Source: Actinostola sp. cb2023
Lineage: Eukaryota; Cnidaria; Anthozoa; Actiniaria; Actinostolidae
NCBI GenBank assembly: GCA_033675265.1
Contig: JAUJYZ010000250.1
Coordinates: forward strand, 186,001 to 250,000
Length of the DNA stretch: 64,000 nucleotides
Direction: 5' to 3'
Part shown: positions 17,871 to 49,537 of the stretch, piece by piece
Numbering within the stretch: the first letter of the stretch is position 1
How the letters are laid out: every line of letters begins with the position of its first letter
The notes under the pieces: generated by a model
The model's database searches: none
What the model was told of the DNA's origin: nothing
The model's input: the letters and a program-made list of their open reading frames with translations, nothing else
Made by a program: the position numbers and the translations under genes

Positions 17871-17984
17871 TAGCCCGCGGTGGATCGGTCAGCAGATTGT
17901 GGCGAGGGGCCGGTAGGTACTTCATATATGGTACAATATAATGTCCTCAATATATATATCTCATTCTACTTTATCCTCATGCAT

Positions 17985-29655: not shown

Positions 29656-29860
29656 CATAAAAAACTAACATTATGCCAACAGCGTAATGGCATTTATGTC
29701 GAAACATAGCACACACCCAGTAATCCGATATTTGCATGCCAGTGCGCCTGTCCTGCAAAGTGACCAATGGGAGTTCAGGAGGATAATACTTAAGGCGTGT
29801 TCTGATAACACGCGGCCTCTTTCCTCTACCACTCGGAACGAAACATCATTTCAAAATTTT
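29656..29860 (+). repeat. Ngaro-like A1 repeat (5' end)
   Basis: Matches 50184-50388 and 50648-50852 almost perfectly (one A/G difference noticed in TGCATGCCA(G/A)TGCG). It starts CATAAAAAACTAACATTATG and ends ATCATTTCAAAATTTT. It presumably carries the element promoter. A frame opens through it by chance because the same DNA is reused at the 3' end. Confidence 0.9.
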
Positions 29861-29914
29861 TCAGGCAAGTTACTTTACTGTTTAGCTCAGTTAATTTCCT
29901 CGGTGGTTAATAGT

Positions 29915-30954: not shown

Positions 30955-32007
30955 ATGCCTCGAGTCACCCGTGTAACTCGCCGTGGAAGGCCTGCAGCGC
31001 CCAGAGCCGATGCTACAGAGGTTTCGGCCGAGGATGTTCTGCAACCTGCAACCAGCAACCTGGAACCTGGAACAGTGTCAGTGAACGTTGCAGCCCTATC
31101 TGCAACCATATCGACGGCTGTTTCACAGGCTGTACAGGCCGCCATGTCCAAGCAACCTGGTCTCGGCAATGGTCAAAATCCCACTCCTAGCCAGATGGTC
31201 GGTGAGGCGGTTGATGATGAGGTAGCTGATATCCGTGGAGCAGGTATTCCGTCACCAAACGACACCACTGTTAGACCGCATCAGTTATTCACTAGTATTG
31301 CGGTGAGTTTGGGATCACGTGTCAGCGCGAGGTTAAAAGCAAAAATTTGGGCTGAAGAATATGTTGATTTCGGTGCCTTACTTTCCATCCCTCCGCAAAG
31401 CGAGAAATACTCGCTTTCATTGGCCCGACCTTCTGACTCCAGCCCGCGCACACCTCAGCTGACACTTGAGCCTTGCCATCAGCCCAAAAAGGTTACAACC
31501 ATTGACCAGTGGATAACTGCCTTCCATACATATGTTTCCATTTATTCTGAGAAGTTCAGTAGCCAGACTTCTCGCTTAATGAAATACTGCGAAACCGTGC
31601 GGGACTTGGCACAAAAGCCTGGGGACTGGCATTACTATGACGAGCAGTTTCGCTTTCTTAGACAGTCGGCCCCTGATCGTTATCCATGGGACCAAATTCA
31701 CTGGGGGCTATGGCTGGGGGCGGTGACGAATTTTCGTAAGTCAACGCCACAGCATGCGCAAGGGAATGATAAGGCCTCACAACGCGGCCGCTTTCGCATC
31801 ACCAACCAATTTCCTAAGGGAACTTGTTGGGCATTTCAGGGAGGCCGATTCTGTAAAGGCTGCCAGTTCGAGCACACGTGCTATAAGTGCAGTGGCAAGC
31901 ACCCCGGGAGCACATGTCTCACCCCCGAAAAGCGCGATCACCCGAAACCAAGACCATCAGCTCAACCTCCCAACACAGCGCAAGCCGGTCACACCGGTAA
32001 AAAGTGA
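30955..32007 (+). CDS. Ngaro-like Gag with zinc-binding C-terminus
   Basis: A 350-residue protein. An Ala/Thr-rich N-terminus is followed by a helical central region (LMKYCETVRDLAQ, FRFLRQSAPDRYPWDQIHWG) and then GTCWAFQGGRFCKGCQFEH, continuing into HTCYKCSGKHPGSTC. The Cys/His pattern (C...C-X2-C...H-X-C-X2-C-X4-H) resembles the RNA-binding end of YR-element Gag proteins. The RT frame starts at 31754 inside it in another phase, and conserved RT sequence begins just past the Gag stop, so a translational frameshift or internal start is likely. The frame is intact. Confidence 0.75.
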   Translation: MPRVTRVTRRGRPAAPRADATEVSAEDVLQPATSNLEPGTVSVNVAALSATISTAVSQAVQAAMSKQPGLGNGQNPTPSQMVGEAVDDEVADIRGAGIPSPNDTTVRPHQLFTSIAVSLGSRVSARLKAKIWAEEYVDFGALLSIPPQSEKYSLSLARPSDSSPRTPQLTLEPCHQPKKVTTIDQWITAFHTYVSIYSEKFSSQTSRLMKYCETVRDLAQKPGDWHYYDEQFRFLRQSAPDRYPWDQIHWGLWLGAVTNFRKSTPQHAQGNDKASQRGRFRITNQFPKGTCWAFQGGRFCKGCQFEHTCYKCSGKHPGSTCLTPEKRDHPKPRPSAQPPNTAQAGHTGKK

Positions 32008-33156
32008 ACGGCTTGAGTTTCTTTTACAAGGCTATAATCCTGATTTGGTTCTATTTTTGTGCAATGGTTTTCGTTTCGGTTTTCGTGTTAACTTCATGGG
32101 TGAGCGACATTCCTTTGATTCTCCCAACCTTAAAAGCGCACTTGAACAACCGGAAATCACGTTATCGAAATTGCGTAAGGAATGCGAAGCTGGTAGAATA
32201 GCTGGGCCTTTCCTCAAGCCTCCATTTCCTATTTTTCGTACGTCGCCCCTAGGCATAGTTCCCAAGAAAGACCCTTCTGATTTCCGTTTAATTCATCATT
32301 TGTCCTACCCTAAAGGCTCATCTGTGAATGATTCTATACCCGATTATTGTTCTTCTGTACAATATGCCTCCATTGGTCAGGCAATATCTGCCATAAAAGG
32401 TTTAGGGGCAGGCTGTTTCATGTCTAAGACTGATATCAAATCAGCCTTTCGTATCATCCCAGTTCATCCTGATGATCAACCGTTGTTGGGCATGAGATGG
32501 GATGATATGTATTATTTCGATAGGTGTTTACCAATGGGTTGCTCTTCTTCCTGCGCCATTTTTGAAGCTTTTAGCACTTCCCTAGAATGGCTCTCTCTGA
32601 CACGTTTTGGTGCATCGGCTGTTCTGCATGTATTGGACGATTTTTTATTCATCGCGTCCAGCGAGGACAAATGCCGCACAGACCTGTCTAATTTCATGAG
32701 AATGTGTGACTATATAGGTGTTCCTTTAGCCCCAGAAAAGACTGTTGGTCCTGACACGACTTTGCAGTTCACCGGTATAACCCTCGACTCGGTCAAAGGA
32801 GAAGCCAGACTACCGGACGAAAAGCTTCAAAAATGCCGTAATTTACTTCATAATTTTTATAAAAGGCGCACAGTGACACTGCGTGAAATGCAATCTTTGA
32901 TAGGCCTATTGAATTTTACATGCTCAGTGATTACTCCAGGTCGCGCCTTCCTTCGCCGCATGATCGACCTTACCAAGGGACCCCAACGCCCACACCATCA
33001 TATACGTTTAACCAAAGACGTCAAACAGGACATCGCTTTATGGTTTAGATTCTTAGATCATTTTAACGGCAAGTCATTTTTCTTGGATGACAAATGGTTG
33101 ACCTCTCCCAATCTTGACATGTATACGGATGCCGCGGGATCACTGGGCTACGGGGC
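31754..33156 (+). pseudogene. Ngaro-like reverse transcriptase and RNase H, 5' part
   Basis: RT motifs are complete: SKTDIKSAFRIIPVHPDDQP (A), LPMGCSSSCAIFEAF (B) and LHVLDDFLFIAS (C, V-L-D-D). RNase H begins with LDMYTDAAGSLGYGA and is then cut by the Polinton-like insertion after 33156. Translation into the insertion adds a short spurious tail ending at 33211. The conserved region starts near 32010. The frame is otherwise intact, so the gene was probably functional when hit. Confidence 0.85.
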
Positions 33157-33699
33157 AGTAGTAGGGGAAAGAGAGTTCACGCGCACTTCCAAAATACTAC
33201 AAAATGATTGATCATATTTTTAGAATAAAGTATATGATGCCCTTAATTCAACAACAAGGAGTTCAATTTAGTAAATCTATTTTGAAAAACAGGTGATAAT
33301 AAAGCAAGTGCGTTTATTTTTATCACACAATAAAGTAGTTAATTAGTAAAAATACAAATATGAAATAAGTAGGTGCGTTTATTTTATAATTGTCAGAAAA
33401 ATCGATTATCAGTGATAGTACACATTATTTGTATTAAACAAGTAATTCAATACAGACATTCACTTAGTAGTCCAATAATAGTCTCCAAGGTATATACCAG
33501 GGTAAAAGAATATTGACAGTATCATAGGATGGATTCATGCATTGATGATGTGTTATGGGTTGTTCACAACGATATTATCCATCTCTAGAGCTTGTCAATC
33601 ACTGGCTTATTCATCTCTTGATATTATCAAATTAATCTAGGATTTTTATAAAATAGAGTGCGTTTGAAAGACAAAAATAATTTATACTATAAGAGTATA
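33157..33699. repeat. element 2 left terminal inverted repeat
   Basis: Exact length match to 47669-48211; one mismatch seen (A at about 33656 against G). Near-identity argues for a recent insertion. The inner boundary lies four bases before the polymerase ATG, so the TIR supplies that gene's promoter. Confidence 0.95.
33683..33699. promoter_or_regulatory. palindromic TIR-edge promoter
   Basis: TATACTATAAGAGTATA, a TATACT...AGTATA palindrome holding CTATAAG, ends the left TIR, with the polymerase ATG at 33703. The same string in the right TIR (47669-47685) precedes the minus-strand ATG at 47664. Both outermost genes therefore start from identical TIR-borne sequence. Confidence 0.6.
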
Positions 33700-33702
33700 C
33701 TA

Positions 33703-36700
33703 ATGATTGAAAATCCTATAAATCACAATGATATATTTATGTTAATTGATGTATTAGAAAAAAACATTGAAAAAATAAATAAGAAGGTTAACAATGATAT
33801 TTCAAAAATTCAATCCTTGGATGATCAAATGAATAAATTATATGATGGTATTAATTTTATTTCCAATCAAGGATATACCTTTAATTACGCAAAAAAAGCA
33901 ACGAGATTATAAAACAGCGAGATCTCATCTTAGGGGTTTGAAGAATAAAATGAATAATATTATTAGACGTATTAATTCTCCTAGATTTAAAATAACTAAA
34001 TTTAATCCCAAGAAGGGTCGTGATGAGATAATCCCATTTATAGATGTACAAGATGGATATCAAGAAGACCGTATATGGTATAAAAAGGCTAAAAATTTTA
34101 ATGTTATACATAGGGTTAAGTCTGCTCTTAAAGGGTTTCTAAGGAATTATCGTGTTAAGGCTCCAGATAAGATTGATCCTAAGATTTTTCTTGAAAGAAA
34201 AATGAATGGGGTTGTTAATTTAATTAAATCATCTAAAAAACCGGTAAAGGTTAAGATCCTTCTTTTGGTAGAATACTATAAGCCAGGTGATGAAAAAATA
34301 TATACACAGAGTCACTTTCATAGTAAAACAGTACCAATTTTTGATACGACAAATGTTAAAGATATATATATACAATTCTCGGAAGAAATATTAGAAAAGG
34401 TGGATAATTTTATTCATCTAGGTTCAGGTTGGATTTTTCATAAAACACTTGCATTGAATATTTTCATTGATAAATACAATCCTACACATGGTAGCTCATT
34501 CATTAAATTAAGTGATGATTTAATTAAGAAAAGGGCTATCGTTAATTTACAGAACAACGATTCAAAGTGTTTTATGTGGTCTATTACTCGAGCCATATAT
34601 CCAGAGAAGCGTGATAATGAACGAATTACTAAACTTCTACGGATTAATAGTGAGAAGCTATGTTGGGATGGGCTTACATTCCCTGTTTCTGTTAATGATA
34701 TTGGTATTTTTGAAACTAATAATCCGGGATATGGTGTTAATGTATTCGGTCATTCATCTTCTAATGGGACGTATTGTATTAGGGAACACAATGTTGAAAA
34801 TTCTAAACAAGTAATAGATTTGCTATATATAACAAATAAAGAGGCTGATGGACATTACTGTTGGATTCGACATATATCTCGATTGCTTTCAAACCAAATA
34901 AGTAAGCATCGGGGTAGACGTTTTTTTTTTTTGTAAGAGATGCATCCTTTCATATCAATCACAAGACTCCTTAGACAGGCATATGGAGATTTGTAAGACA
35001 AATGATGTTGTGAAATTAGTTTTACCAAAAAAAGGAACAATGCTAAAATTCAAAAACTATAAGCATAGCATGAGAGTTCCCTTTGTTATTTATAGCGATT
35101 TTGAATCGCGATTAGAAAGTATATCAACCTGTCAACCAGATGAAAGTAGATCATTCACAAACCAATACCAGCATCATAAACCAAGTGGGTTTTGTTATTT
35201 AGTGAAGTGTTACGATGATAGCCTTTTCAAACCAAAAATTGTTAGATACACAGCTGAAAATGAAGACATCGATGTTGGTGAGCATTTCGTGAATTCGATA
35301 GAAAAGACAGTTAGAGATTTATATTCAAAATTTTTTAGATTCAATAAAAGGGGTAAAATGACAAAAATTGATGATGAAAACTATAAGAATGCAACCAAGT
35401 GCCATATTTGTGAAAAAGACCTTGGAGAAGATAAGGTATTAGATCACGATCATTTAAATGGAAAGTATCGTGGGGCTAGTCATAATGAATGCAATCTACA
35501 ATATCAGGTACCAAAGCACATACCTGTTATATTTCATAATTTGAGTGGGTATGATAGTCATTTATTCATCAAAAATTTAGGTGTTAGCAGCGGTAAAATT
35601 GATTGTATCCCAAATAATGAAGAGAAATACATTAGTTTTTCTAAAACGATAGTAGTAGATAAATTCACTAACAAGCTTGGCAAACAATGCAATGTGAAAC
35701 GAGAGATTAGATTCATTGATAGTTTCAAGTTTATGGCAGCTAGTCTAGATTCACTTGTTACCAATTTGGGAAAAGAACAGTTTAGAAATATGAAAATGTT
35801 CTACACTGGGATGAAGTTTGAATTATTAGCTAGGAAGGGGGTGTTTCCTTATGACCATTTTCAAAATTTAGATGTTTTAGATGAAACAAGCTTACCACCG
35901 ATAGAAGCATTCCATTCTAAGATTAATAATACTAATATTAGTATCGATGAATACAAACATGCTCAAAAAGTGTGGGACACATTTAATATACAAAGCATGC
36001 GGGAATACCACAATCTCTATTTGGAGTCAGACACTCTTTTGCTGGGAGATGTGTTTGAATCATTTAGAGATGTTTGTATGGAAAATTATAAATTAGACCC
36101 TTGTTGGTATTACACCAGTCCCGGTCTTAGTTGGGATGCAATGCTTAAGATTACAAAAGTTAATCTTGAATTGCTTAGTGATCCAGACATGCTTCTTATG
36201 CTCGAGCGGGGTGTACGTGGTGGAATTTCGATGATAAGCAAAAGATATGCAGAGGCGAATAATCCTTTAATGAAGAATTATGATAAATCAAAAAAAACGG
36301 TGTGGATCAAGTATCTCGATGCAAATGCATTATATGCTGGTGCAATGAGTCAACCACTTCCAACCAATGGTTTCAAGTGGATGAACAAGGTTGAAAAGAA
36401 GAATTGGATGAAGCATCCATGCATTCTAGAGGTTGATTTAGAGTACAACCACAAACTCCATGACTTGCATAATGAATATCCCCTAGCTCCTGAAAGATTA
36501 ATGGTTAACAAAGTTGAGAAGCTTGTACCAAGTTTAAATAATCGTGAAAAAATATATTATCCATCATCAAACCCTTAAAATGTATCTATCATTAGGCATG
36601 AAATTATTAAAAGTTCATAGAGGTATTCTATTTCATGAAGAACCATTTTTGAAAACGTATATCGATCTCAATACAAAATTACGTACAGAGGCTAAAAAAA

Positions 36701-37523
36701 CAGTTTTGAAAAAGACTTTTTCAAGCTTCAATCCAACAGCTGTTTTGGTAAAACAATGGAGAATGTACGTCACCATTCTCACATTAGATTAGTAACAAAC
36801 GAAGAACAGGCTAGCAGATTAGTAAACAGGCCCAACTATAAAAAACGTACGATATTCAGTGAAAATCTTATAGCAATTCATTTGACAAAAACAGAGATTA
36901 TTTTCAACAAACCGATTTACCTCGGTATGTCTATTCTTGATCTCAGTAAAAACACGATGTATAATTTCCACTATGAATATATTAAAAATAAATATGGAAG
37001 TGCTGCCAGCCTTCTTTTAACCGATACGGATAGTCTCATGTATGAAATTCAAACTGAAGATTATTACAAAGACATTGAGGGTGATATTAATGATAAATTT
37101 GATACTAGCAACTATCCAGAAAACCATCCAGGAATCAAAAAACGAATTAACAAGAAAGTGCCTGGTATGTTTAAAGACGAATCTCCTCATTCGGAAATAG
37201 TCGAATTCACGGGTCTGAGAGCCAAACTCTATTCTTACTGAACAGACGATAAAAATGAAGAAAAACGCTGCAAGGGTATTAAAAAGATGGTAGTCCGAAA
37301 TGAAATATCGTTTCAAAATTACAAGGATTGTCTTGATACAGGAATACCACAAATGCGTAAGATGAACGTAATTCGATCTCATAAACATGAATTATTTACA
37401 GAGACGATTAATAAAACCGCTTTGAGTTCTAATGATGATAAGAGAATCATACTACCTAATGGTATAGACACATTAGCTATTGGTTATAAGGGTTCTGATC
37501 ATACACTATCATGTGGTAGCTGA
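33703..37523 (+). pseudogene. protein-primed-type DNA polymerase B, several frame breaks
   Basis: The ATG lies just inside the TIR. After a long basic N-terminal region come a Cys/His segment, exonuclease motifs (VIYSDFES, then FHNLSGYDSHLF) with an inserted CHICEKDLG...LDHDHLNGKYRG zinc-finger-like block, and polymerase motif A (YLDANALYAGAMSQPLP). Motif B (residues SNSCFGKTMENVR) and motif C (LLLTDTDSLMYEI) follow. The enzyme would replicate the linear element from protein-primed ends. Breaks: A7 at 33891, T12 at 34921-34932, A6 at 36547-36552, A7 at 36694-36700, and an in-frame TGA at 37239-37241. All but the TGA sit in homopolymers. Domain content is complete. Confidence 0.85.
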
Positions 37524-38490
37524 GTATCTTCAGGAACAGCTTGTAATTCCTCTCTAACAAAATTACGTTTTGGGCCCCCTTCAGAGAGGTAATATAAGAC
37601 GGGTTGGTCTGGTGATACAACAGTCCTTGATATATCATACATATCCATTGACCATATAGGGTCAGTAGCACGTCTTCTTTCTTTCACCACCTTCCTGTTC
37701 ACCAGGAGCATAGAGATATCTAACTTTAACACCTGCTGGTAGTCGATCTTCTTTTAATCCAACAGGTCGTTTATAATTCACATGGTTTTCATCAACCTCT
37801 TCTAATTTTATAGCATCAATCGGTGCCTTACCAGTAATTCGTTTCACACCACTGTTTATACTTTGTATGACAGCAGGCATTCTATTAACCCATTCACGGG
37901 ATCTTTCATTATTTTCCATTATCATTTCTTTAGCATACTGGTGGCTAAATAGTTTCTCAGCAATGGTTCGATTAGCGCGCTCGACTAGTGATTGTGCTCT
38001 ATGATTTCCAGCTTCAGATCTTTGTATTTTTATTTTATGTTTTTTTCATAATCGATGTAACTTCTCCCATAAATTCTTTACCAGGATCAACCATCATTGT
38101 TTCAGGCCATGTTAAACGTCGAGAATATATTTTATTGAAAGCTGTAGATACTTCTGTTGAAAACTTAGACGTCAAGGGTTCAGCATCTGTATACCTACTT
38201 GCTATATCAACTACTACAAGAGCATATTTGTATGTCTTTCTTTTAACAGTGTCATGTGGTAGAAATAATAAATCTGCCTGATGTATTTTATTTGGTTTTG
38301 AAATAGACCAATGATATCGTGGGATATAGTTTGGAGGTGATAAATATATCTGCCATAATACTTGTTTTTCTAACCACCTCTTTGTGATATCTTTATCAAT
38401 TTTGGTAGCATCAGAGAGTTTATTTATAGCATCATAACCTTTCCAATAGCCTTTAGGACTATAGTATATTTTTGATAACTTCTTTTCCAT
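37499..38490 (-). pseudogene. retroviral-type integrase, two frameshifts
   Basis: Runs opposite to its neighbours. From ATG 38490 the N-terminal segment (YYSPKGYWKGYDAINKLS) leads to the core: D in IHQADLLFLP, D in MMVDPGKEFMG, and E in SLVERANRTIAEKLF after a shift at the T7 run 38040-38046 (plus strand). A second shift near 37675 precedes the C-terminal SH3-like tail (YLYAPGEQ...). The DDE triad is complete across frames. It would join the TIR ends to host DNA, giving the GGGGC duplication. It is divergent from the capsid gene; only about 40 bases of AT-rich DNA separate the two ATGs. Confidence 0.8.
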
Positions 38491-38529
38491 AATATTAATA
38501 TATAAGAATATTATCTTTATACAATATAT

Positions 38530-39771
38530 ATGAGTCATACAATATCAGATATTCTTGATGTTAATCGAGAGACAAAAAAGGTATATGCTTTAAAAGCCGA
38601 AAGAGTATTAAACAGGGTGACATTTTCACCTTCGTCAGCGAATCCAGGTGAAAATTTATACATTAGTATACCAAAATTATCTAATGGATATGTATTCGTA
38701 CCAGGTAGTATAGCTTTAATATTTAATTTAACGCTACAGATGGGTCAAGTTAATAATACAGTTGTTAACAACCTCAGTCGATCTCTGGTTGAGAGGATGC
38801 GTATCGTTTATAGTGGAGAAGTAGTTCAAGATCTAAATAGAGCAGACTTATATCATACATATAAAGACCTCTATAAACTTGTTAGGGAACGGGATGATAT
38901 GCTTCGTGAAGGTGTTTCAAGTGTGAATATGAGGAAATTGCGAACTGGTGCAGCTGATAAAACATCTACAGATGCATCTGAGGTTACTCTTAGTAATATT
39001 CATGGAACGAAGTACAGAATTCCAATATCACATAGTATTATTGATAACCACGGTGTTCTCAACATGCGTGCTCTAAGTGACACATTCATATTCGAGGTAA
39101 CTTTACCACAGAGCAGTGCTATTGGTGTTACTAGCGATAATACAAAAAATTATGGATATAGTCTTTCTAATATTGAATTAGAGTATGAGACGATTCACTC
39201 CGAAACTCTTTCTCAAGATGCTGCTATTAGCTATCAGGTTGGGAAAGGTTTCTATTTTGAAAATGTGCTTCTTCATAAGTCATTCGTTATCAACAAAGCT
39301 ACAGACACCACGATAAATCAGCACGTCAACGTTCCACGACGTAGTCTTACAGGAATCCTAATGCTATTCGTAGATCCATACACACCCGGTGCCCGGGATT
39401 CTGAGAAGTTTGTTAATCCAAGTATCATAAAAATAGAAATCAACGTCGATGGTATGCCTAACCGCCTCTTCTCGAAAGGAATGACACAGACTGACATATG
39501 GGATAGTGTTATAAAACGATTTGGTATAAGCGATAACGTAACACAAAAACGATTCTTTACAGATAAATATGCTGTGTGGATTGATCTGAGAACATTTCCC
39601 GACAACGAGTTACACGGAGCTGGACTCCATTTGAATAACACTAAAGATGGCATACGTCTTACTATTACTCGAACAGCGGTAGGGACTGGAACCACCAATT
39701 GTTATATGTATGTTGTGGGAGATGCTGTTTTTGAGATTGAAAATTCAAATCTGAAGGCAATATTATATTAA
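38530..39771 (+). CDS. probable major capsid protein
   Basis: An intact 413-residue protein rich in beta-strand-like segments: RVTFSPSSANPGENLYISIP, VPGSIALIFNLTL, LVERMRIVYSGEVVQDLNR, YSLSNIELEYETI, VPRRSLTGILMLFVDPYTPG, WIDLRTFPDNELHGAG and YMYVVGDAVFEIENSNLKAI. Size, strand content and position beside the packaging ATPase fit a double jelly-roll capsid protein of the Polinton/adenovirus lineage. It is not similar by eye to the capsid fragment of element 1, so the two elements belong to different lineages. The assignment is inferred; a structure prediction would settle it. The ATG follows ACAATATAT directly. Confidence 0.65.
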   Translation: MSHTISDILDVNRETKKVYALKAERVLNRVTFSPSSANPGENLYISIPKLSNGYVFVPGSIALIFNLTLQMGQVNNTVVNNLSRSLVERMRIVYSGEVVQDLNRADLYHTYKDLYKLVRERDDMLREGVSSVNMRKLRTGAADKTSTDASEVTLSNIHGTKYRIPISHSIIDNHGVLNMRALSDTFIFEVTLPQSSAIGVTSDNTKNYGYSLSNIELEYETIHSETLSQDAAISYQVGKGFYFENVLLHKSFVINKATDTTINQHVNVPRRSLTGILMLFVDPYTPGARDSEKFVNPSIIKIEINVDGMPNRLFSKGMTQTDIWDSVIKRFGISDNVTQKRFFTDKYAVWIDLRTFPDNELHGAGLHLNNTKDGIRLTITRTAVGTGTTNCYMYVVGDAVFEIENSNLKAILY

Positions 39772-39796
39772 GTTATATAACCTAAATTAATTATAT

Positions 39797-40428
39797 ATGG
39801 AATGCATGAAAGATCAATTACCATTCAACTGTATTATATCGGGTGTGACTTGCAGCGGAAAATCGGCTTTCCTGGTTTATTTACTTAGAAATCATTTTAG
39901 AAATATATTTGAATATATCGTTTTGGTTTGTCCTACTTATGCTTTAAATAAGAGTTATCAAGGATTTGCTCAAAACGATCCTAGATTTATAGTTATTCAA
40001 CCAGATGCTAGTAATGTTGATGAGATTGATATGATATTATCCAGTTGTAAAGAGGTTTTTTCTGGTTATAAAACATTGATCATCCTAGACGATTGTGCTG
40101 CTAGCAAAGATTTGAAGCGCGACGATCTAACACGTTTATTAATTTAGCCTTCTCTGGTAGACATGAAAACATTTCATTATGGGTGCTTACTCAATGCCTT
40201 ACAGCTGTAAGTAAATCATTTCGTGAAAACGTTGGTTGTGTCGTTTCGTTTTATAATCCTAGTAAGATTTCAAATCAAGTTTTATTTGACGAGTATGCAG
40301 GAAATATGCCGCTTGAAGAACGTAATGAATTCATGAAAATTCTCAAATCTGAAAAATATACAAGGATTGTTTTTTGTTTGAGACATCCATTTGATATATT
40401 TTTAGAAATTCCGAGTGTTACTATTTAA
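39797..40428 (+). pseudogene. FtsK/HerA-type DNA-packaging ATPase, one frameshift
   Basis: The first frame (39797-40147) holds Walker A, IISGVTCSGKSAFLVYLL, and Walker B, TLIILDDCAAS. The second (40183-40428) continues with SLWVLTQCLTAVSKSFREN, whose L-T-Q resembles the sensor Gln, and a C-terminal lid. Sense passes between frames near 40140. The protein is about 210 residues in all, the size of Polinton and adenovirus IVa2/A32-like packaging ATPases. It would drive DNA into preformed capsids. It starts nine bases after TTATATATGG-type sequence and follows the capsid gene by 25 bases. Confidence 0.8.
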
Positions 40429-40455
40429 AAATATAATGTATGTATAGTATAATAT

Positions 40456-41055
40456 ATGAGTTCAATACTTGATCAATATATGAATGATGAGAAACTAGAT
40501 ACTATTCAAGAGGAGGTTGAACAACCAAATGTTGATAAGAAATTGAGTAAAAAGAAGAAACCAATAGTTAATTTAGAGATAGAGGAGAAACGTGAACAAT
40601 TATCTATTTTAGCTGTTCTAGGCACAATTGAAGCATATACAGGTCAGAAGATGAGTCTCGGTGATGTTAAGAAATTATCATTGAAGGATGTTGATAAATA
40701 TTATAATCGTTATCAAATTATTCTAGGGAACAATGTCTCAAGTTCTCTTGTCAATTCAGGTATAGATGCAGCTGTTAGTCTCCTTTCTTATGGGATCCCA
40801 ATTGATAATCCCACAGAGCTTTCTAATGATTTGAAGAACAATGAGATGTTAAGACAGGAGTTAAATAATATTGCTGGATACGTTGTTTTAAGAGGAGGAC
40901 GATTTGTGGCTTTAGCAAGCTGTCTAATCCAAGTGGCAAAGCATGTTAAGATTAGTAATAGTGGTGATGATTGGTTAGCTCCACCCATCATACATAGTAA
41001 TTTAGAGGAAGATATTCTTGTAGATATTAAACAAGTTGTTGATGAGCACTCTTGA
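40456..41055 (+). CDS. conserved element protein, unknown function
   Basis: An intact 199-residue protein. A charged, lysine-rich N-terminus (KKLSKKKKPIVNLEIEEKRE) leads into a helical region with SILAVLGTIEAYTGQKMSLG and YYNRYQIILGNNVSSSL, then IAGYVVLRGGRFVALASCL. The C-terminal residues VDEHS are encoded by the first unit of the TTGAGCA array, which overlaps the stop. No catalytic motif is visible. Its place between ATPase and BRO/nuclease genes suggests a virion or regulatory component. TATAATATATG spans the start. Confidence 0.6.
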   Translation: MSSILDQYMNDEKLDTIQEEVEQPNVDKKLSKKKKPIVNLEIEEKREQLSILAVLGTIEAYTGQKMSLGDVKKLSLKDVDKYYNRYQIILGNNVSSSLVNSGIDAAVSLLSYGIPIDNPTELSNDLKNNEMLRQELNNIAGYVVLRGGRFVALASCLIQVAKHVKISNSGDDWLAPPIIHSNLEEDILVDIKQVVDEHS

Positions 41056-41190
41056 GCACTGTTGAGCATACTCTTGGAACCTGTTGAGCATCTGTTGGAA
41101 TCTCTTGAGCAGACTCTTGAGCACTCTTGAGCAGACTCTTGGAACCTGTTGAGCAGACTCTTGAACACTCTTGAGCAGACTCTTGGAATT
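41041..41190. repeat. TTGAGCA heptamer array 1
   Basis: About ten copies of (C/A)TCTTGAGCA(C/G)(A/T)... alternating with TGTTGAGCA and TTGGAA(C/T)C spacers. It begins inside the stop region of the preceding gene and ends about 40 bases before the BRO-N ATG. The same words form the array at 42078-42200 on the other side of that gene. Confidence 0.9.
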
Positions 41191-41228
41191 CACTAAAAAA
41201 TATTATTTATTATATAATAATATATAAT

Positions 41229-42088
41229 ATGGCATTATCAATTAGAAAATTTGAAAACATAAAACTTGGTATTTCTATAGATACATATATTGATGATAAA
41301 CAGAATATATGGTTCAAAGGTATAGATGTTGCAAAAGCGTTAGAATATAAGAAACCTAGAAATGCAATTGGAACACATGTCGATGAGGAATATAAAACAG
41401 AATGGGAAAATGTATGTCAGAATACAAATTACACAACCGCCCCATTTCAGGGCGGTTCTTCAGAGCCCCTTAGAAATCTTAAACCACACACTATATTCAT
41501 AAAAGAACCTGGATTATATTCTCTTATCTTCAGCTCTAAAATGGAAGCCGCCAAACAGTTTCAAAAATGGGTGTTCTCTACAGTATTACCATCCATAAGA
41601 AAATATGGGTCTTATCAAGTGTTTAACAACCCAAAAAAACATTATCATTCAAGATTGAAAATGAATATGACCTACATACAAAAGTGGTTCAATATATTAG
41701 ACGGTTCAATCCCAACCTTCTTATGGTAGCAGGATTAGGTGAAAACCAGGATTCTAGTAATAAAAGAATTCAATCTTATAAAAAAGGTTATATGAAGGGA
41801 CAACCAGACTTGATTATTAATAACTTTCATAAAAAATATTGTGGCCTCTGTATAGAATTTAAAACACCCACTGCTACTGGTGTTACTTCTATTGAACAGA
41901 AAAACTTGTTAGAAAGATATGAGGAAAATGGATTCAAATGTGTTGTATCTAACGATTATGATCTTATTATCAAAGAACTAAACAACTATTGTATGGATAT
42001 TAGATTGAAGTGTAAATATTGTAGTAGAGGATTTATAACAAGTAACACATTAAAAAATCATAATAAATATTTTCATAGAATCTCTTGA
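41229..42088 (+). pseudogene. BRO-N / VRR-NUC-like nuclease / C2H2 finger protein, one frameshift
   Basis: The first frame starts MALSIRKFENIKLGISIDTY and has the BRO-N fold pattern (WFKGIDVAKALEYKKPRNAI, HTIFIKEPGLYSLIFSSKM, FQKWVFSTVLPSIRKYG). After a shift near 41690 (A4 run) comes a restriction-like nuclease part: MVAGLGENQDSSNKRI, KGQPDLIINN and CIEFKTPTATG. Its G-x-P-D...E-x-K core matches VRR-NUC/PD-(D/E)XK enzymes. A C2H2 finger ends it (CKYCSRGF...NHNKYFH, C-X2-C-X12-H-X4-H). BRO-N domains bind DNA and are common in large DNA viruses; fused to a nuclease and a finger this looks like a sequence-specific DNA-cutting protein. Function is inferred. Confidence 0.75.
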
Positions 42089-42200
42089 GCATCTGTTGGA
42101 ATCTCTTGAGCATACTGTTGAGCATCTGTTGGAATCTCTTGAGCAGCTGTTGAGCATACTGTTGGAACCTCTTGAGCAGTTGCTGAGCATACTGTTGAGT
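42078..42200. repeat. TTGAGCA heptamer array 2
   Basis: About seven copies of TTGAGCA with CTGTTGGAATCTC spacers, starting in the 3' end of the nuclease gene (CTTGAGCATC just at the stop). It is in the same orientation as array 1, so the BRO-N/nuclease gene is flanked by direct arrays. Confidence 0.9.
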
Positions 42201-42234
42201 TGATATTTTATAAATATATATAAAAAAATAAAAT

Positions 42235-42684
42235 ATGTTTATAGACTATATGACTGAAGATAATAAAACAGAGATTATTACCAAAGAGCCTGAACAAAAG
42301 ATAGTCCATATTAAGGATCCAAAAAGGGTAGAAGCCGGTAAAAAGCTTGCTCTTTATCATCAAAAAGCTAAGAAAGCTCTTGAAATGGAAAAGAGCCGTG
42401 ATGTTACTGATGATTATATTGAAGATAGCCGTGATGTTACTGATGATGATATTGAAGAAGGTTCTAGTTCAAAATGGATGCCTAGTATGACAATAGTGCT
42501 GACGATCGTTGGTATCAGTTTGACTGCTTTAGATCTTTATCTGAGGTGGAAAAAAAGTGATCAATCAAATATAAAATCTATAACACAACCAAAAATAGAT
42601 CACAATGATGTAAAAGATGATAAACCAGGTAGAACATCAATGATCCCAATACCTAGAATTGGGATGGGAATGATAACTATATAA
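42235..42684 (+). CDS. single-span membrane protein
   Basis: 149 residues, intact. The N-terminal part has IKDPKRVEAGKKLALYHQKA, a basic helix, followed by two copies of SRDVTDD(Y/D)IE. A membrane helix (MTIVLTIVGISLTALDLYL) comes next, and the tail is basic. The topology suggests a virion or host-membrane protein. It is transcribed rightward with its ATG inside AAATAAAATATG. Confidence 0.6.
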   Translation: MFIDYMTEDNKTEIITKEPEQKIVHIKDPKRVEAGKKLALYHQKAKKALEMEKSRDVTDDYIEDSRDVTDDDIEEGSSSKWMPSMTIVLTIVGISLTALDLYLRWKKSDQSNIKSITQPKIDHNDVKDDKPGRTSMIPIPRIGMGMITI

Positions 42685-42717
42685 AAATAATTTAACTTTC
42701 ATATTATATATAAGAAG

Positions 42718-42937
42718 ATGGAAAACAAATTAGTTAAGTCAACGATGGATTCCGCTGTCATTATTGGGGTAGCGGCTATTATTGGATATGCTGGTAAGAA
42801 AGTTATGAGGGAGAAATTTCCTTGGTGATCCAAGCACAAGCGTCACTAATTACGGCAAATGGGTGCTTGTTCTTGCTGGAAGTATGTATGTTAAACAATA
42901 TCTAGAAGATCAAAAGATTCTTCCAAAATCGGTATAA
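42718..42937 (+). pseudogene. small membrane protein, one frameshift
   Basis: The first frame, from ATG 42718, gives a hydrophobic helix (SAVIIGVAAIIGYAGKKVMR) and stops after FPW at 42826-42828. In the next frame the sense goes on: GDPSTSVTNYGKWVLVLAGS and YVKQYLEDQKILPKSV. Together about 72 residues with two short membrane segments. The shift lies at CCTTGG near 42822. The gene sits between two other membrane-protein genes of the element. Confidence 0.55.
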
Positions 42938-42965
42938 AAAGATAATAGCATTGTATAATATATAG

Positions 42966-43391
42966 ATGGCAAGTGCTATTGCGATGATGATAATGGGGGC
43001 CGTTTTAAATGCGTCAGCCTTTACAGGGTCGATGTATTTAGCTAAAGCCCTCAGCTCAGATTCTAAACATACTGATGGGGAGAGGCTTCGACACGATAAA
43101 GCACTTGAAAAATACCAACAAGATATGGGAGAATTTGAAAAGGATCGACAACTATATCAAGACTGGTTGACTACTCAGTATGAAAGAAAGAATATAGCTG
43201 ATAATAATCTAAGGAATACGGATCATAATTTTAAACTATATAGGGATGTACACCCCGAATCAAACATTAATAAGCAAGAACCACAATTCTCAGACTATTA
43301 TAAACCGAGTAGTAAACAAAAACAATATGAAATTCTATATGTTGGTGGTGGTATGTTGACTGCTGGTTATTTAGCATCAAAAATTATATAA
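42966..43391 (+). CDS. two-span membrane protein with charged middle
   Basis: 141 residues, intact. The N-terminal hydrophobic helix (AIAMMIMGAVLNASAFTGSM) is followed by a long charged helix (DGERLRHDKALEKYQQDMGE) and a C-terminal glycine-rich helix (ILYVGGGMLTAGYLASKII). Two membrane anchors around a coiled-coil-like stem suggest a membrane-associated virion or scaffold protein. The ATG follows TATAATATATAG by one base. I recognise the gene type only as a recurrent companion of such elements. Confidence 0.6.
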   Translation: MASAIAMMIMGAVLNASAFTGSMYLAKALSSDSKHTDGERLRHDKALEKYQQDMGEFEKDRQLYQDWLTTQYERKNIADNNLRNTDHNFKLYRDVHPESNINKQEPQFSDYYKPSSKQKQYEILYVGGGMLTAGYLASKII

Positions 43392-43419
43392 AAACAATTT
43401 ACTAATTTATATATAGTAG

Positions 43420-44443
43420 ATGGAAGGTGAAATATTTCCTGATACAGATTTTCATCCTCTTGAAGGAGGGTCTGAAGATGTAAACATCCCTATCACAGAT
43501 GATGAACTAGCGGAATTATTACCACAACAAAAAGAACCTAGACACACTTGGTGGGAACGGACTAAAGAATGGTTTGGTAGAAGGGGTATATCAAAAGAAC
43601 GAGGATATAGATTGTTTAAGAACTCTGATGAAAGCAATGAAGATTGGGGAAGGAGGGCAAGAGAAGACATAGAAATGGTAGACCTTGCTAAACATCGTGA
43701 AGAAAGAGTTGAGGAAGCTTGGGATAGGATCAAATCCAAGTATCCTAATGTAAATCCTAATAACTCTCCATTCATAAGCACAATTGATGAATATGATAGA
43801 GTGATAGTAAGATTTAATAGAGTGGGCAGCAAACATCATGTTCTGTTTAATGCTGAGGGTGAATTAAATGGTAAGTTACCTAAAACAATTGTAAACTATC
43901 TTGGTGATCCTGCTGAAAAAGTTGTTGAGAATAATGAAAGAACTATATTTTCACATCGAGAAAAATTACAAACATTAGAAGAAGAATTGGTTAATATATC
44001 TCAAGCTGGCTCTAATGATGTTAGAGAAAGATTGAATATATCACTCCGTGAACAGATTGAGGAAACTAGAAATGAGATTGAACAATTAGAAGAACAAAAT
44101 GAAGTAATAGAAGGGCGAATGTCTCTGAGAGATCGTATAAAAGCTGTTTTTTAAAAAGTATGGTTTTACTGTTTTTTCTGTTGTATCTGCAATTGGTATT
44201 ATTATTGGTGTTATTATTTCTAGTCTAAAAAGCGGATTATCTTCGGTTGCCAGCGGTGTTGGAAATAGTTTGAAATCAATAGGTAAAAAATTAGCTCAGA
44301 TACTACCTGGCATGGTTGGTGCAATAGCTTCTTTTATTTTCAGAACCGCGGGTGAGGTTATTAGTTTCTTAGCTAAAAACGCTTGGTTATTGATAGTTGC
44401 TGTTGTTTTGTATTTTGTTGAAAGATATAAAAATAAAAAATGA
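43420..44443 (+). pseudogene. coiled-coil membrane protein, C-terminus frameshifted at T6
   Basis: The first 244 residues are acidic then helical: TWWERTKEWFGRRGI, RVIVRFNRVGSKHHVLFNAE, and a coiled coil (REQIEETRNEIEQLEEQNEV) ending RDRIKAVF. Straight after, in another frame and without its own ATG, about 94 residues follow. They hold a first membrane helix (SAIGIIIGVIISSL), an amphipathic Gly/Ser/Lys region (ASGVGNSLKSIGKKLAQ), a helix with FIFRTAGEV, and a final span (WLLIVAVVLYFVERY). The join sits at the T6 run 44147-44152. The whole would be a roughly 340-residue membrane protein with a cytosolic coiled coil. Confidence 0.6.
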
Positions 44444-44456
44444 TTATATAGTATAA

Positions 44457-45100
44457 ATGGTAATATTGTATATTGAAAAAACAAAAGCAGATGAAACTAT
44501 TTGGTTTAAAAATCCTATTAAAAAGAGTACACGTATATCACTTGTAAGTTGTAGTTTTCATAATCATTTGTATAATCTTCCGAGTGAAGGAACTATTTCA
44601 GATGGAGATGGAAATGTTGTGATACGGATTCCGAAAGGAAACTACAATAATTTTAGTTTTAAAAATGCTGTTGATAAAACGGTTTCACTTGGTGATAAAA
44701 AGTTTCAATCACAATTGTAGATAAAAAATATAATATCACCCCGACAGTAGAGGTTGAATTAAATGTGAGTTTATCAAAATTATTAAACATTACAACAGGT
44801 CTTACAGCAAATATCAAATATAATATCAATATTATACAACCTACTCAAGATGCCTGCATTAATTGTGATCTCATTGATTCTACACAGGTTTTATTAAATA
44901 ATAAATATTCACAAATATTAGCATGTGTTGAATTAAACAAGGCTGGAGAAAAAGTAACCTATCATCCTAATAATACCCTGTACACACCTATTAAAAATGA
45001 TGATTATATTAATAGTATTAGGGTTTGGGTTACAGATTCTAGAAACCAAAGTATTAACATTGGAATTTACCCTATGCGAATGGTAATTGAAATCATATAA
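44457..45100 (+). pseudogene. beta-rich element protein, one frameshift at A5
   Basis: The first 87 residues (44457-44720) have strand-like segments: VILYIEKTKADETIWFKNPI, RISLVSCSFHNHLYNLPSEG and GNVVIRIPKGNY. Sense then continues in another frame from the A5 run 44697-44701 to 45100 with VEVELNVSLSKLL, AGEKVTYHPNNTLY and SIRVWVTDSRNQSINIGIYP. Total length is about 214 residues, mostly beta. A minor capsid or penton-like protein would fit such content and position, but that is a guess needing structure prediction. Confidence 0.5.
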
Positions 45101-45127
45101 AAAATAAAAAGATAATATAATATATAT

Positions 45128-45824
45128 ATGGTTGATTATGATGCGATTTATCCTGAGATTCCAAAATCTGGTGAGAATTTCAGGTTACACAAAGTAAATA
45201 TGGTACTATCACAACTAGGAGCTGAGGTAAAACATTATGAAAATGTTAGGAAAAAATATAGTAAGATACGTGGTATACTTCATAAAACTGCAGTTGCAAC
45301 AGGAGTCTTATCTGTCATTTTAACTGGTTCTGGTGTAACTAACTACTAGTTTAACAGGACCTGGGATCATTATCGGTGTTCCTTTATCGGCTGTTGGCGG
45401 GTTGTTAGGTTTAATATCAGCTAGTTGTACAATTTTCATGAAAAAACTTACTAAAAAGGTAACAAAACATGAAAATACTATTCAGCTTGCAAAATCAAAA
45501 GAAGATAGTATATGTGATCTTGTATCAAAAGCCTTGAGCGATAACAAGATTGATGAGAAAGAATTTGAACACATTATGACTGAACTCAAAAAATATGAAA
45601 AACTAAAGAGTAGTATTAGGGTGAAACGGAATAAGGCTTTTTTAAAAAAACGATGTTCCAGATGTTCAAAAGATGAGGGAGGAACTGAGAAAGGAGATTG
45701 TAGACCAGCTCGTAAATCCAAAGAAATAACTTTATCCTTTGATACAACACCTACGGAGGGTATATATACAAGTTGCGATATGATAAGAATTAAAAATATA
45801 TATAAATATTATCTCATATTATAA
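45128..45824 (+). pseudogene. membrane/helical element protein, broken
   Basis: ATG 45128 starts DYDAIYPEIPKSGENFRLHK, then a helical stretch and a hydrophobic helix. A TAG at 45347-45349 interrupts it after GSGVTNY. The sense resumes in a second frame with a membrane helix (IIIGVPLSAVGGLLGLISAS) and a long charged helix (DNKIDEKEFEHIMTELKKYE), then degenerates after about 45640. The protein has two adjacent membrane segments and a C-terminal coiled coil. The function is unknown. Confidence 0.5.
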
Positions 45825-45833
45825 TAATATAAT

Positions 45834-47345
45834 ATGAAATTTACTGAATTCATTAAAAAGTATCCAAATTATGATAAATTTCGTTTTTCAGAGGATAGTA
45901 GTAGTAATGTTCAATTTCTTAGTAATGGTGTTGATTACAATCCGTTTGATGAGAATGGTAATCTAGTTAAAACAGTATATCCATTTCCTCTCTGGCATGG
46001 TAAAGTTGAAGAAGACCCTGAAAATATTCGTGACTTCCTTAGAACCACATCTAATAACACATTTCCAAAAGAGCTAACTATGACAAAAACACTATACCCA
46101 ATCACTTGTACATCATTTGATAAACCACCTCCAAAGTATGATTCCACATCACTCGATATTTATGTAACACCAAGTAAAAAGTTTACAATAAAACCACGAG
46201 ATATGTTAACAGATATAGTATTAAATCATGTTACTTCGAAAGAAGCTTACATATGGTTGAATAGTCCTAATATGTCTTACTACCCTCAACAATTAAGTTT
46301 CGCTTGTTGGTGTGCATCTTCTGGATGTGGAATCGGTGTCGACCTAATAACAAAAATCAATAATCCTATGATCAACTCATTACTCAAATTTCATATACTG
46401 TTTACGAGTAGGCGAGTTTTATCACAGATGAATGTTCAACTACCTGGAGATCGATCTTTTACTAATATTAATAACAAATTTGATAAGAGTGGTTATAATA
46501 AGATATGTCGAGAGTTTGATATATCACCAAATAGTAACTTTCGATTTACTGGTGATGAAAACAATGGTCTTGGTCGAATCTATAAGAAAATATTTGATGA
46601 GGTTGATGATGTAACTGAATCCTATGATAAAAAGATGGATGGATTGTTTACAAATAAATGGCCTGGTGGTAAATTCAAATTTGGTGATGAGACTGGACAA
46701 TACGGTGGAAATAAACTTGATCATATCTCACCACTACAAGAGCATCCATATTTATATTTTATGCTGAATAAATCAAAAGGTTTAACCAGAGCTGGACTCT
46801 CACGACTGAACCAGTCAATCGAGGCTTATGTGTATTGTATCCTAGGATCTCAAGTAAATACACGATCATCTATTGTTGACAACTCGGGTTCTTCACAAGA
46901 AACACAACTTGAATTTTTAAGACTATTCGAAAGCAGTATAATTGAGGTAGATATTTCTAAAAGTATACAGAGATACCAATTAGCGGTACAAGAATCGAAA
47001 CAAAAATTAGATCTTGCTGTGGCTATTGGTTGCTGGTTACTACCATCGAATCTAATAATCAATAATAATACTGTTATCGGTTATAATAATAAGTTGTTAA
47101 AAGCTTCAGCAGATATGACCTTTGGTGTTAATAATATTAATTATGAAACGAAATCTGTTGGTATAAAACATAATAACATGGGTCATTCAAAGGTTAAACT
47201 ACCACATCAGATTGATAAACCAGATATTTCAAATAAGTCAGATAAACCATATGTAAACCCTTCACCACCATCTAAAACACATGAAAATAATTTAGCTGCT
47301 ATAACAGTTGGGGCTGCTGGCCTTGCTTGGTATATGTTTCGATAG
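45834..47345 (+). CDS. large conserved element protein, unknown function
   Basis: 503 residues, intact, the longest unbroken gene of element 2. The N-terminus is FTEFIKKYPNYDKFRFSEDS. Mid-protein segments include VYPFPLWHGKVEEDPENIRD, LNSPNMSYYPQQLSFACWCA and GIGVDLITKINNPMINSLLK. Later come DHISPLQEHPYLYFMLNKSK and LTRAGLSRLNQSIEAYVYCI, a feature-poor basic linker, and a C-terminal hydrophobic helix (AAITVGAAGLAWYMF). A single C-terminal anchor on a large soluble domain suits a virion surface or entry-related protein, but nothing proves it. The ATG lies at the end of ATAATATAATATG. Confidence 0.6.
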   Translation: MKFTEFIKKYPNYDKFRFSEDSSSNVQFLSNGVDYNPFDENGNLVKTVYPFPLWHGKVEEDPENIRDFLRTTSNNTFPKELTMTKTLYPITCTSFDKPPPKYDSTSLDIYVTPSKKFTIKPRDMLTDIVLNHVTSKEAYIWLNSPNMSYYPQQLSFACWCASSGCGIGVDLITKINNPMINSLLKFHILFTSRRVLSQMNVQLPGDRSFTNINNKFDKSGYNKICREFDISPNSNFRFTGDENNGLGRIYKKIFDEVDDVTESYDKKMDGLFTNKWPGGKFKFGDETGQYGGNKLDHISPLQEHPYLYFMLNKSKGLTRAGLSRLNQSIEAYVYCILGSQVNTRSSIVDNSGSSQETQLEFLRLFESSIIEVDISKSIQRYQLAVQESKQKLDLAVAIGCWLLPSNLIINNNTVIGYNNKLLKASADMTFGVNNINYETKSVGIKHNNMGHSKVKLPHQIDKPDISNKSDKPYVNPSPPSKTHENNLAAITVGAAGLAWYMFR

Positions 47346-47372
47346 ATGTATACAATCATCAATTTCCAACAA

Positions 47373-47403
47373 TTACATTTTTAATTATTAATTAGAAATG
47401 TAA
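47373..47403. terminator. hairpin between convergent genes
   Basis: TTACATTT (47373-47380) pairs with AAATGTAA (47396-47403), with extra AT pairing inside. It lies between the plus-strand stop at 47345 and the minus-strand gene ending at 47473, so it could end transcription from both sides. Confidence 0.45.
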
Positions 47404-47472
47404 CAAAAAAATAAAACATCAATCAATTATAACTATTTTAATTCACGTAATTTACTGCGATTCTCTAACAAG

Positions 47473-47664
47473 TTAGGTAAATCCCCCCGGTTTTAACCCA
47501 TACCCATCTTTATTTGTTTTTTGATTTGAGACCTTTATTTCAAGTACAGCCTGATCTAAAAGATTACTCGACATGAAAAAGGATTTTGGTTGTTTTTTAA
47601 TTGGGGTTGATTTTATACGTTTTTTAACTGGATTTGCCTTCTTATTAACACTTGTTGAACTCAT
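47473..47664 (-). CDS. small basic protein from the right TIR promoter
   Basis: 63 residues from an ATG at 47664, four bases inside the right TIR. Very basic N-terminal half (NKKANPVKKRIKSTPIKKQP), then a short mixed tail. It could coat DNA, as small core proteins of DNA viruses do. The identical TIR promoter also drives the polymerase gene at the other end, so early expression would be expected. The call rests on promoter position and composition. Confidence 0.45.
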   Translation of the reverse strand: MSSTSVNKKANPVKKRIKSTPIKKQPKSFFMSSNLLDQAVLEIKVSNQKTNKDGYGLKPGGFT

Positions 47665-47668
47665 TATA

Positions 47669-48211
47669 TATACTCTTATAGTATAAATTATTTTTGTCTT
47701 TCAAACGCACCCTATTTTATAAAAATCCTAGATTAATTTGATAATATCAAGAGATGAATAAGCCAGTGATTGACAAGCTCTAGAGATGGATAATATCGTT
47801 GTGAACAACCCATAACACATCATCAATGCATGAATCCATCCTATGATACTGTCAATATTCTTTTACCCTGGTATATACCTTGGAGACTATTATTGGACTA
47901 CTAAGTGAATGTCTGTATTGAATTACTTGTTTAATACAAATAATGTGTACTATCACTGATAATCGATTTTTCTGACAATTATAAAATAAACGCACCTACT
48001 TATTTCATATTTGTATTTTTACTAATTAACTACTTTATTGTGTGATAAAAATAAACGCACTTGCTTTATTATCACCTGTTTTTCAAAATAGATTTACTAA
48101 ATTGAACTCCTTGTTGTTGAATTAAGGGCATCATATACTTTATTCTAAAAATATGATCAATCATTTTGTAGTATTTTGGAAGTGCGCGTGAACTCTCTTT
48201 CCCCTACTACT
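47669..48211. repeat. element 2 right terminal inverted repeat
   Basis: Reverse complement of 33157-33699. The outer end CCCCTACTACT at 48201-48211 is followed by GGGGC, the target duplication, and then by Ngaro RNase H codons. Confidence 0.95.
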
Positions 48212-48216
48212 GGGGC

Positions 48217-48625
48217 TATTTTTGGTAAGCGTTGGTTGTATGGCGTTTGGCCGGCCACTTGGAAATCTTTTAACATAGCATTTTTAGAACTTTTTCCCAT
48301 TGTTCTCTCTGTCAATATTTGGGGGTCCCTAATGGCCAACAGATGCGTTATCTTTTATACTGATAATGCCGCTGTTGTTGACATAATCAATCGTCAAACA
48401 TCTAAGCATAAGGCTATTATGGTATTGGTACGCGATTTAGTTCTAAGTTGTCTACAACATAATATCTTATTTCGAGCTCGGCACGTCCCTGGTTTATGTA
48501 ATACTCGTGCCGATTACATTTCTCGCCTACAGGTAGACAAGTTCAAAGAGCTAATGCCCGGCGCGGACGAGTTCGCGACGCCAATTCCCGCGAACCTTCG
48601 GCCGGAGAGTTGGTCTCTAACCTAG
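48217..48625 (+). pseudogene. Ngaro-like RNase H, 3' part
   Basis: The frame continues exactly from codon position 2 at 33156 to position 3 at 48217, so removal of the insertion plus one GGGGC copy leaves one uninterrupted frame. It holds FIALELFPIVL-type helix residues (FNIAFLELFPIVLSV), FYTDNAAVVDIIN and RARHVPGLCNTRADYISRL, the later acidic and His motifs of RNase H. It overlaps the recombinase frame by 16 bases. Confidence 0.85.
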
Positions 48626-49537
48626 ATGCCCTATTACGATCTGCACTGTCTGAGGGCTCTCGTAAGTCATATCGTCGAGCATGGGCGGTCTTTAGTACAT
48701 TTCATGAGCGTTTTTATGGTATTTTTACGCCAGATTTGCCTTTAAATCCAGACGTGTTGGCTTTGTTTATTTCATATCTCTCGGCCAAGCACTTGGCCTC
48801 TTCTACAATAACATCGTATCTATCAGCGGTCGGCTATTTACATAAGTTAAAAGGGTTTAATGATCCGACGAAAACTTTCTTAATTCGCAAGCTATTGACC
48901 GCTCTGGGCCGCCAGCGCTCTTTTGACGTACGACTACCCATTACTCGACCACTATTACACGAACTTGTGCGAGCCCTGGGACACACCAACTCGTCGGTTT
49001 TTTCAGCGCATTCTTTTCACTTCAATGTTTTTGATAGCTTTTTATGGCTTTTTCCGGGTCGGTGAGCTAGCGGCCAGGGGCTCGAATGTGAGTAACTCAG
49101 TAGTACAATTCAATGCCCTGTCATTCCTGATGCATCATGATAAACCACATGCAGCTAAGATCACCATTACCGATTACAAGCATAATACACAACACCGCCC
49201 CTTCGACGTTTTAATCGACGGCGAAGATTCACAACCGTATTGTCCAGTTAAAACACTAGTGCAGTATTGTCACCTGAGAGGGAGACAGGCTGGTCCGCTT
49301 TTTTGTCATCACGACGGAAGGCCCATTACGGTTTCTCAGTTCAACACCGAACTTCGCCGCTGTTTAATCTTCTGTGGCCTTGACCCTGGTCGATATAAAA
49401 GCCACAGCTTTCGTATCGGGGCCGCCTGTCACGCAGCAGACTTGGGACTTTCTGACGCTCACATTCGTGCTCTGGGTCGCTGGAAATCCGACGCCTTTAA
49501 GATTTACCTCAGGCCTCAGAGCGTAAATGCCAATTAA
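48610..49537 (+). pseudogene. Ngaro-like tyrosine recombinase, frameshift in a T6 run
   Basis: The N-terminal SAM-like part (SEGSRKSYRRAWAVFSTF, SYLSAVGYLHKLKGF) and LPITRPLLHELVRALG lie in the first frame; the catalytic part follows in the second. The join is at T6, 48998-49003. Catalytic residues: R in GFFRVGELA, HxxR in SHSFRIGAACHAA, and Y in RWKSDAFKIYLR. The enzyme would insert the circular cDNA without target duplication. All key residues are present, so only the one-base shift disables it. Confidence 0.8.

Follow-up and report, generated by a model that had tools for sequence, protein, structure and literature searches.

We analyzed a 64,000-nucleotide stretch of the genome of the sea anemone Actinostola sp. 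(C1495:186001-250000, referred to as the window; GC content 38.7%) and searched the whole assembly (424,152,321 bases in 1,594 contigs; copies are named below by contig, as C-numbers) for relatives of the element inserted there. This element, a Polinton/Maverick of 15,055 bp (33157-48211), was recognized by its terminal inverted repeats (TIRs), flanking duplication, and gene content, and lies inside a retrotransposon of the Ngaro type. The left TIR (33157-33699, forward strand) starts with AGTAGTAGGGG, while the right TIR (47669-48211, reverse strand) brings the element to its other full end, CCCCTACTACT; both are 543 bp long and differ at one position only, at 0-based offset 500. The termini, AGTAGTAG...CTACTACT, are of the AG...CT type and are combined with long TIRs, as in other Polinton/Maverick elements. 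The sequence GGGGC is found on both outer sides, at 33152-33156 and 48212-48216, as a target site duplication (TSD). The 6-mers flush with the element are unlike (CGGGGC on the left and GGGGCT on the right); the duplication is 5 bp long.

When position 33156 is joined to 48217, i.e., when the element and one GGGGC are removed, a single open frame of 612 codons coding for reverse transcriptase (RT) and RNase H runs across the junction MYTDAAGSLGYGA-IFGKRWLYGVWPATW. A genome search with 240 bp of this joined empty site produced 33 matches. At nine other places, 238 bp or more of the 240 are present without a break (98-100% identity; six are listed at 100%, four of them with full score). The remaining matches comprise one partial match, the window's own two halves, and relatives at 69-75% identity. 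In the unbroken paralogous sites, which display the sequence as it was before the insertion, GGGGC is present once.

The interrupted element extends from 29656 to 51123 on the forward strand, as judged by its split direct repeats, whose pieces are 99.1-99.7% identical and are laid out as A1-ORFs-B1A2B2 (ORF, open reading frame). It begins with the A1 repeat (29656-29860) and an SGNH/GDSL ORF (29687-30487, Pfam GDSL match), followed by the RT and the first part of RNase H (31754-33156; PF00078, E 5.1e-12, over the Pfam cut-off), which the insertion severed. The frame resumes at 48217 with the remainder of RNase H and then the tyrosine recombinase (48923-49534), the whole segment spanning 48217-49534 on the forward strand (PF13456, E 0.021, and PF00589, E 1.5e-5, both below cut-off). 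A B/A repeat array with a 464-bp period (49983-51123) closes the element. The combination of RT, RNase H, tyrosine recombinase, and split direct repeats fits an Ngaro. The original prediction, which was made from the window alone, had placed the GGGGC copies and the 543-bp TIRs at the right coordinates, with about one difference between TIRs where there is exactly one. It had also proposed that the element is nested in an Ngaro whose RNase H codons resume in frame, so that the empty site can be read; the recombinase, the split repeats, the 612-codon frame, and the nine unbroken sites all agree with this.

Coding capacity of the element

The protein-primed DNA polymerase (pPolB) gene (33842-37241, forward strand) is disrupted, leaving three open frames, 33842-34936, 34983-36578, and 36756-37241. 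At E ≤ 0.001, 6,058 relatives of the middle piece were found; among the 120 listed, one was named DNA polymerase by its source and two carry PF03175. The region itself matches PF02945, while the Pfam scan produced no PF03175 match for the window pieces. One relative at 64% identity, P0122, is recorded as 'DNA polymerase [Balneolales bacterium]' and probably comes from a mis-binned contig. The retrovirus-type (rve) integrase gene (37662-38538, reverse strand) is also broken, into open frames 38035-38538 and 37662-37925. Its match to PF00665 (E 6.4e-6) is below cut-off, as is that of a relative (E 3.5e-6), and an IS481-type match is far below.

The major capsid protein gene (38530-39771, forward strand; 413 amino acids) is intact. 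An AlphaFold2 model of the protein (pLDDT 86.5) had major capsid proteins of an iridovirus (E 5.2e-18) and of PBCV-1 (E 1.9e-16) as top Foldseek matches, which identifies it, at the level of predicted structure, as a double-jelly-roll major capsid protein; some of its 328 relatives carry PF16903. It is followed, on the same strand, by an A32-type packaging ATPase gene (39797-40430; PF04665, E 2.6e-6, above cut-off), whose frame is broken near 40140.

Downstream genes, all on the forward strand, include a 199-amino-acid frame without a Pfam family above cut-off (40456-41055) and two accessory genes. One codes for a BRO-N domain protein (41229-41729; PF02498, E 1.3e-29), the other for a VRR-NUC-like nuclease with a C2H2-type finger (41723-42088; PF08774, E 9e-5, just under, and PF12171 just over cut-off). 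Five small frames without function assignment or Pfam family above cut-off (42235-42684, 42966-43391, 43420-44154, 44457-44720, and 45438-45824) occupy 42235-45824. The last gene (45834-47345) codes for a conserved 503-amino-acid protein without assigned function that has 1,553 relatives at E ≤ 0.001; its model matched none of the solved folds compared at that threshold. A Pfam scan of 16 open frames found no protease family, the adenovirus-type cysteine protease included. No Pfam family match pointed to a minor capsid (penton) protein, for which no aimed test was made; a candidate region is 44457-45100. Scans of the viral_contigs collection with the capsid protein, a capsid alignment, and the ATPase of the compact family described below returned no relatives, and none were found in phages.

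The double-jelly-roll capsid protein, rve integrase, pPolB, and A32-type ATPase, together with the TIRs, make the element a Polinton/Maverick, as had been predicted. The accompanying description of it as complete holds for both ends and for most of the expected genes; pPolB, integrase, and ATPase are broken in the assembly, and the protease is unrecognized. In the genome at large there are at least 123 matches to the capsid gene (123 scored of 332 candidates) and at least 150 to the integrase (150 scored of 505). Of the scored integrase matches, 122 sit in open frames that are at least 300 codons long; for 20 of the 122, the listing shows a stop within the part that matched. Open integrase copies thus exist in the genome, and the broken copy in the window belongs to a minority.

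Duplication lengths of full-size and compact copies

Thirty-three full-size copies could be read at both ends. The first set (n = 17) has TIRs similar to those of the window element and consists of that element and all 16 pairs found on other contigs. The second (n = 11) represents another TIR family (C998, C828, and C526, reached through capsid loci, and eight reached by TIR search), while the third (n = 5) contains further copies reached through capsid loci. Single-ended TIR matches (C768, C580, C1559, C914, C927, and C489) were left out of the count, as were C632 (with its matches on a single strand), C970 (no right end located), C1457 (far TIR outside the stretch examined), and the pair on C230.

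A flush duplication of exactly 5 bp was present in 16 of 17, 11 of 11, and 4 of 5 copies of the three sets, respectively, i.e., in 31 of 33 altogether. None of the 33 had a duplication of 4 bp or of the 6 bp typical of vertebrate elements. As a control, the left flank of one copy was compared with the right flank of another; flush matches of 5 bp were seen in 2 of 1,260 such combinations, and matches of 6 bp in none. The first 19 pairs tabulated yielded 18 duplications, every one with a different sequence, which makes these copies independent insertions. The 5-bp copies start with AGTAG and continue in several ways. Tabulation of duplication lengths in other copies had been proposed as a check on the original prediction; carried out within this genome, it extends the 5-bp duplication from the window to nearly all full-size copies.

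Duplications of 6 bp were found in a separate, compact family. On C916, a full-size element with a 5-bp duplication (AGAGC) is nested in an element that has 899-bp TIRs and TTGAAC at both sides; the full-size element (C916:155785-172139) apparently lies within the ATPase-bearing open frame of its compact host. A search with the 899-bp TIR gave 421 first-look candidates in the genome, of which 40 were scored, and opposed matches 4.4-5.9 kb apart were present on ten further contigs. Reading of three of the ten pairs revealed duplications AAGGTC, TGCCAC, and GCAAGG. With C916 included, all four compact copies that were read have exactly 6 bp, and none has 5 bp. Members of the family, among them C916, C1117, C718, and C1115, are ca. 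5 kb long with 0.9-kb TIRs, and since only ca. 3 kb are left between the TIRs, the usual set of polymerase, integrase, and capsid genes does not fit. Each of the ten pairs encloses, by coordinates, a match to an A32-like ATPase gene (PF04665 over cut-off).

The first 12 bases, AGTAGTAGGGAA, are common to five 5-bp copies (C226, C843, C828, C526, and C186) and two 6-bp copies (the outer element of C916 and C1117). Random assignment of lengths to copies would separate the 31 from the 4 completely with P = 1.9e-5, the copies being taken as independent. These data support the conclusion that duplication length follows element family. Copies with 6-bp duplications and a different terminus, which the original prediction had named as evidence against itself, were absent among full-size elements; the 6-bp copies form a family of their own, whose termini are of the same type.

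The compact elements might be satellites that possess their own DNA-packaging motor and depend, as parasites, on a 6-bp Polinton for integrase, polymerase, and capsids, an idea that we regard as speculative and rather unlikely. If it is true, duplication length would identify the helper of the compact family. A literature search under several spellings found no report of non-autonomous Polintons.

Integrase, stagger, and alternative explanations

Among the best 150 of 505 integrase candidates, matches enclosed by full-size TIR pairs (by coordinates) were present in 27 of the 32 pairs outside the window and were 76-100% identical to the window part. Whole integrase frames were compared from ten loci, at seven of which a 5-bp duplication was read; they showed 89-99% mutual identity and 81-85% identity to the N-terminal part of the window integrase. 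On C848, the N-terminal 166 residues are listed as 100% identical to those of the window integrase, while the TIRs are only 78% identical over 113 bp; TIR or gene exchange between families is likely.

Two lengths coexist in one host, partly with the same termini, which points to two integrase lineages if, as we infer, integrase is the cause. It is very probable, in our judgment, that full-size Polintons of this anemone are moved by an integrase lineage that makes 5-bp duplications and that a different, 6-bp integrase serves the compact family. The course of events in the window would be as follows. Linear Polinton/Maverick DNA with AGTAGTAG ends would have integrated into the RNase H region of a resident Ngaro. 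An rve-type integrase would have joined both ends to opposite target strands at positions 5 bp apart, and gap repair by the host would have produced the flush GGGGC copies. The 5-bp stagger would be fixed in the integrase lineage common to the full-size elements, while compact elements, which are Polinton-derived and have the same terminus type, would be moved by a different, putative integrase with a 6-bp stagger. At the level of families, the data thus sustain the earlier suggestion that the 5-bp length is the mark of an integrase lineage (31 of 33 against 4 of 4, and 5-bp integrases that are alike), while the role of integrase itself is deduced.

Several observations weigh against this interpretation. 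Two of the 33 full-size copies yield no duplication (none at C561 and no matched ends at C146), and two of the 31, C918 and C969, are in simple repeats that are compatible with other lengths, too, leaving 29 unambiguous cases. For C970 and C1457, the far end could not be located within the sequence examined. C843, C918, C475, C498, and C1018 have no integrase match among the best 150 of 505, and the compact copies read are only four. A genome search with PF00665, in which 150 of 1,437 candidates were scored, found no integrase tied to the 6-bp family; many of the scored matches are part of very long open frames of the kind found in retroelements. Finally, with pPolB, integrase, and ATPase all broken, the window copy moved in trans, or decayed after insertion, or contains assembly errors; the assembly was made from PacBio reads that were corrected and polished (PMC10803348).

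One alternative is that the window copy started with a 6-bp duplication, the normal product of its integrase, and has since lost a base at one of the junctions. A length of 6 bp is given for Polintons (PMC10045372) and for 134 intact vertebrate Mavericks (PMC8097293), the target reads GGGGCT, and at this site a one-base loss would look identical; the empty sites alone leave room for it. The other copies close that room. Exactly 5 bp at 31 of 33 copies in different sites rules out such a loss, unless a systematic error is shared by every left or every right junction, and we give this explanation next to no credence. Nor is it credible that the junctions arose by an assembly join of unrelated contigs. 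The assembly is a draft of 1,596 scaffolds (PMC10803348), but a TIR at both ends, a flush duplication, frame continuity, nine unbroken sites, and like anatomy at 30 other loci led us to reject this possibility. A factor other than integrase, for example, host repair or the terminal sequence, could set the length, and the search for a 6-bp integrase, which identified none, leaves some weight on this side. Against it, a single host genome contains both lengths, and an effect of the terminus is rejected by the same first 12 bases in five 5-bp and two 6-bp copies (the comparison being limited to these 12 bases). We consider such a factor improbable.

The age of the insertion is less certain. The TIRs have no mismatch in 14 of 19 copies (first 113-300 bp compared), which suggests that the insertions are recent, as does the single mismatch in 543 bp in the window, where a recent event had been predicted; homogenization of TIRs by copying may mimic youth. 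If replication or gene conversion has kept its TIRs alike, the window copy could be older than it looks, its frameshifts reflecting long decay. Three core genes are broken despite one TIR mismatch, and the coding breaks appear to exceed what would be expected at the TIR rate. On the other hand, long-read indel errors could account for the frame breaks, and the Ngaro sequence cut by the element is itself young, its copies being 98-100% identical at the site; the Maverick is necessarily younger than that Ngaro insertion. An older age is therefore the less favored reading, though one to be taken seriously.

Relation to known systems and further observations

Retroviral-type integrases set the duplication length by the spacing of two strand-transfer sites (PMC10045372). 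Duplication length serves in transposon classification and reflects the spacing of the two active sites of an integrase. Vertebrate Mavericks (PMC8097293), whose 134 intact copies have 6-bp duplications and most commonly (AGT)2 ends, resemble the window element in their (AGT)2...(ACT)2 termini, TIRs of a few hundred bp, length of ca. 15-17 kb, and set of pPolB, integrase, capsid protein, and ATPase. In contrast to them, the window element has a 5-bp duplication, a sea anemone host, and a different gene order, with the integrase and capsid genes as divergent neighbors. Another anthozoan, Nematostella vectensis, is also named as a Polinton host (PMC4028283); the window capsid protein, pPolB, and 503-amino-acid protein have Nematostella or Actinostola proteins among their named matches.

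For mavirus and Polintons, duplications of 5-6 bp are given (PMC8547959), a range into which the window copy and 30 others fall. The mavirus/EMALE virophages of Cafeteria likewise have an rve integrase, and their partner element is again an Ngaro; EMALE duplications are mostly 3-5 bp, and Ngaros there enter the virus, whereas in the window the virus-like element entered the Ngaro (PMC8547959). A study of cryptophyte Polinton-like viruses (PMC12220804) gives 5-6 bp in general and 6 bp as typical for the rve integrase of protist elements. One rve-bearing element described there has a 5-bp duplication (GTTAT), as in the window, although these are elements of protists. The duplication terms searched do not occur in PMC10120064.

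Duplications of 5 bp have thus already been mentioned in print for Polintons; the literature search turned up no genome described as having two fixed lengths, and the clean split between 5 and 6 bp within one genome is, as far as searched, new. The full-size copies qualify the rule of thumb that Polintons duplicate 6 bp. Two Polinton-type families with like ends and 5- or 6-bp scars in one genome constitute a natural experiment on active-site spacing, and 'one integrase lineage, one stagger' becomes directly testable.

A genome search with PF03175 gave 75 matches, some in frames of up to 1,671 codons; the window locus was not among them. On C21, C80, C516, C1339, C1077, and other contigs, the matches lie in uninterrupted frames of ca. 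1,670 codons, which may represent another pPolB lineage, possibly that of the 6-bp helper. On C293, an rve frame of 368 codons is located ca. 15 kb from a PF03175 match and is a candidate lead to the 6-bp integrase.

Elsewhere in the window, 1.3 kb at 15508-16823 match their own reverse complement at 94%, forming a long, foldback-like palindrome. Self-comparison also revealed tandem repeat arrays at 17334-17871, 55972-56751, and 61264-62669.

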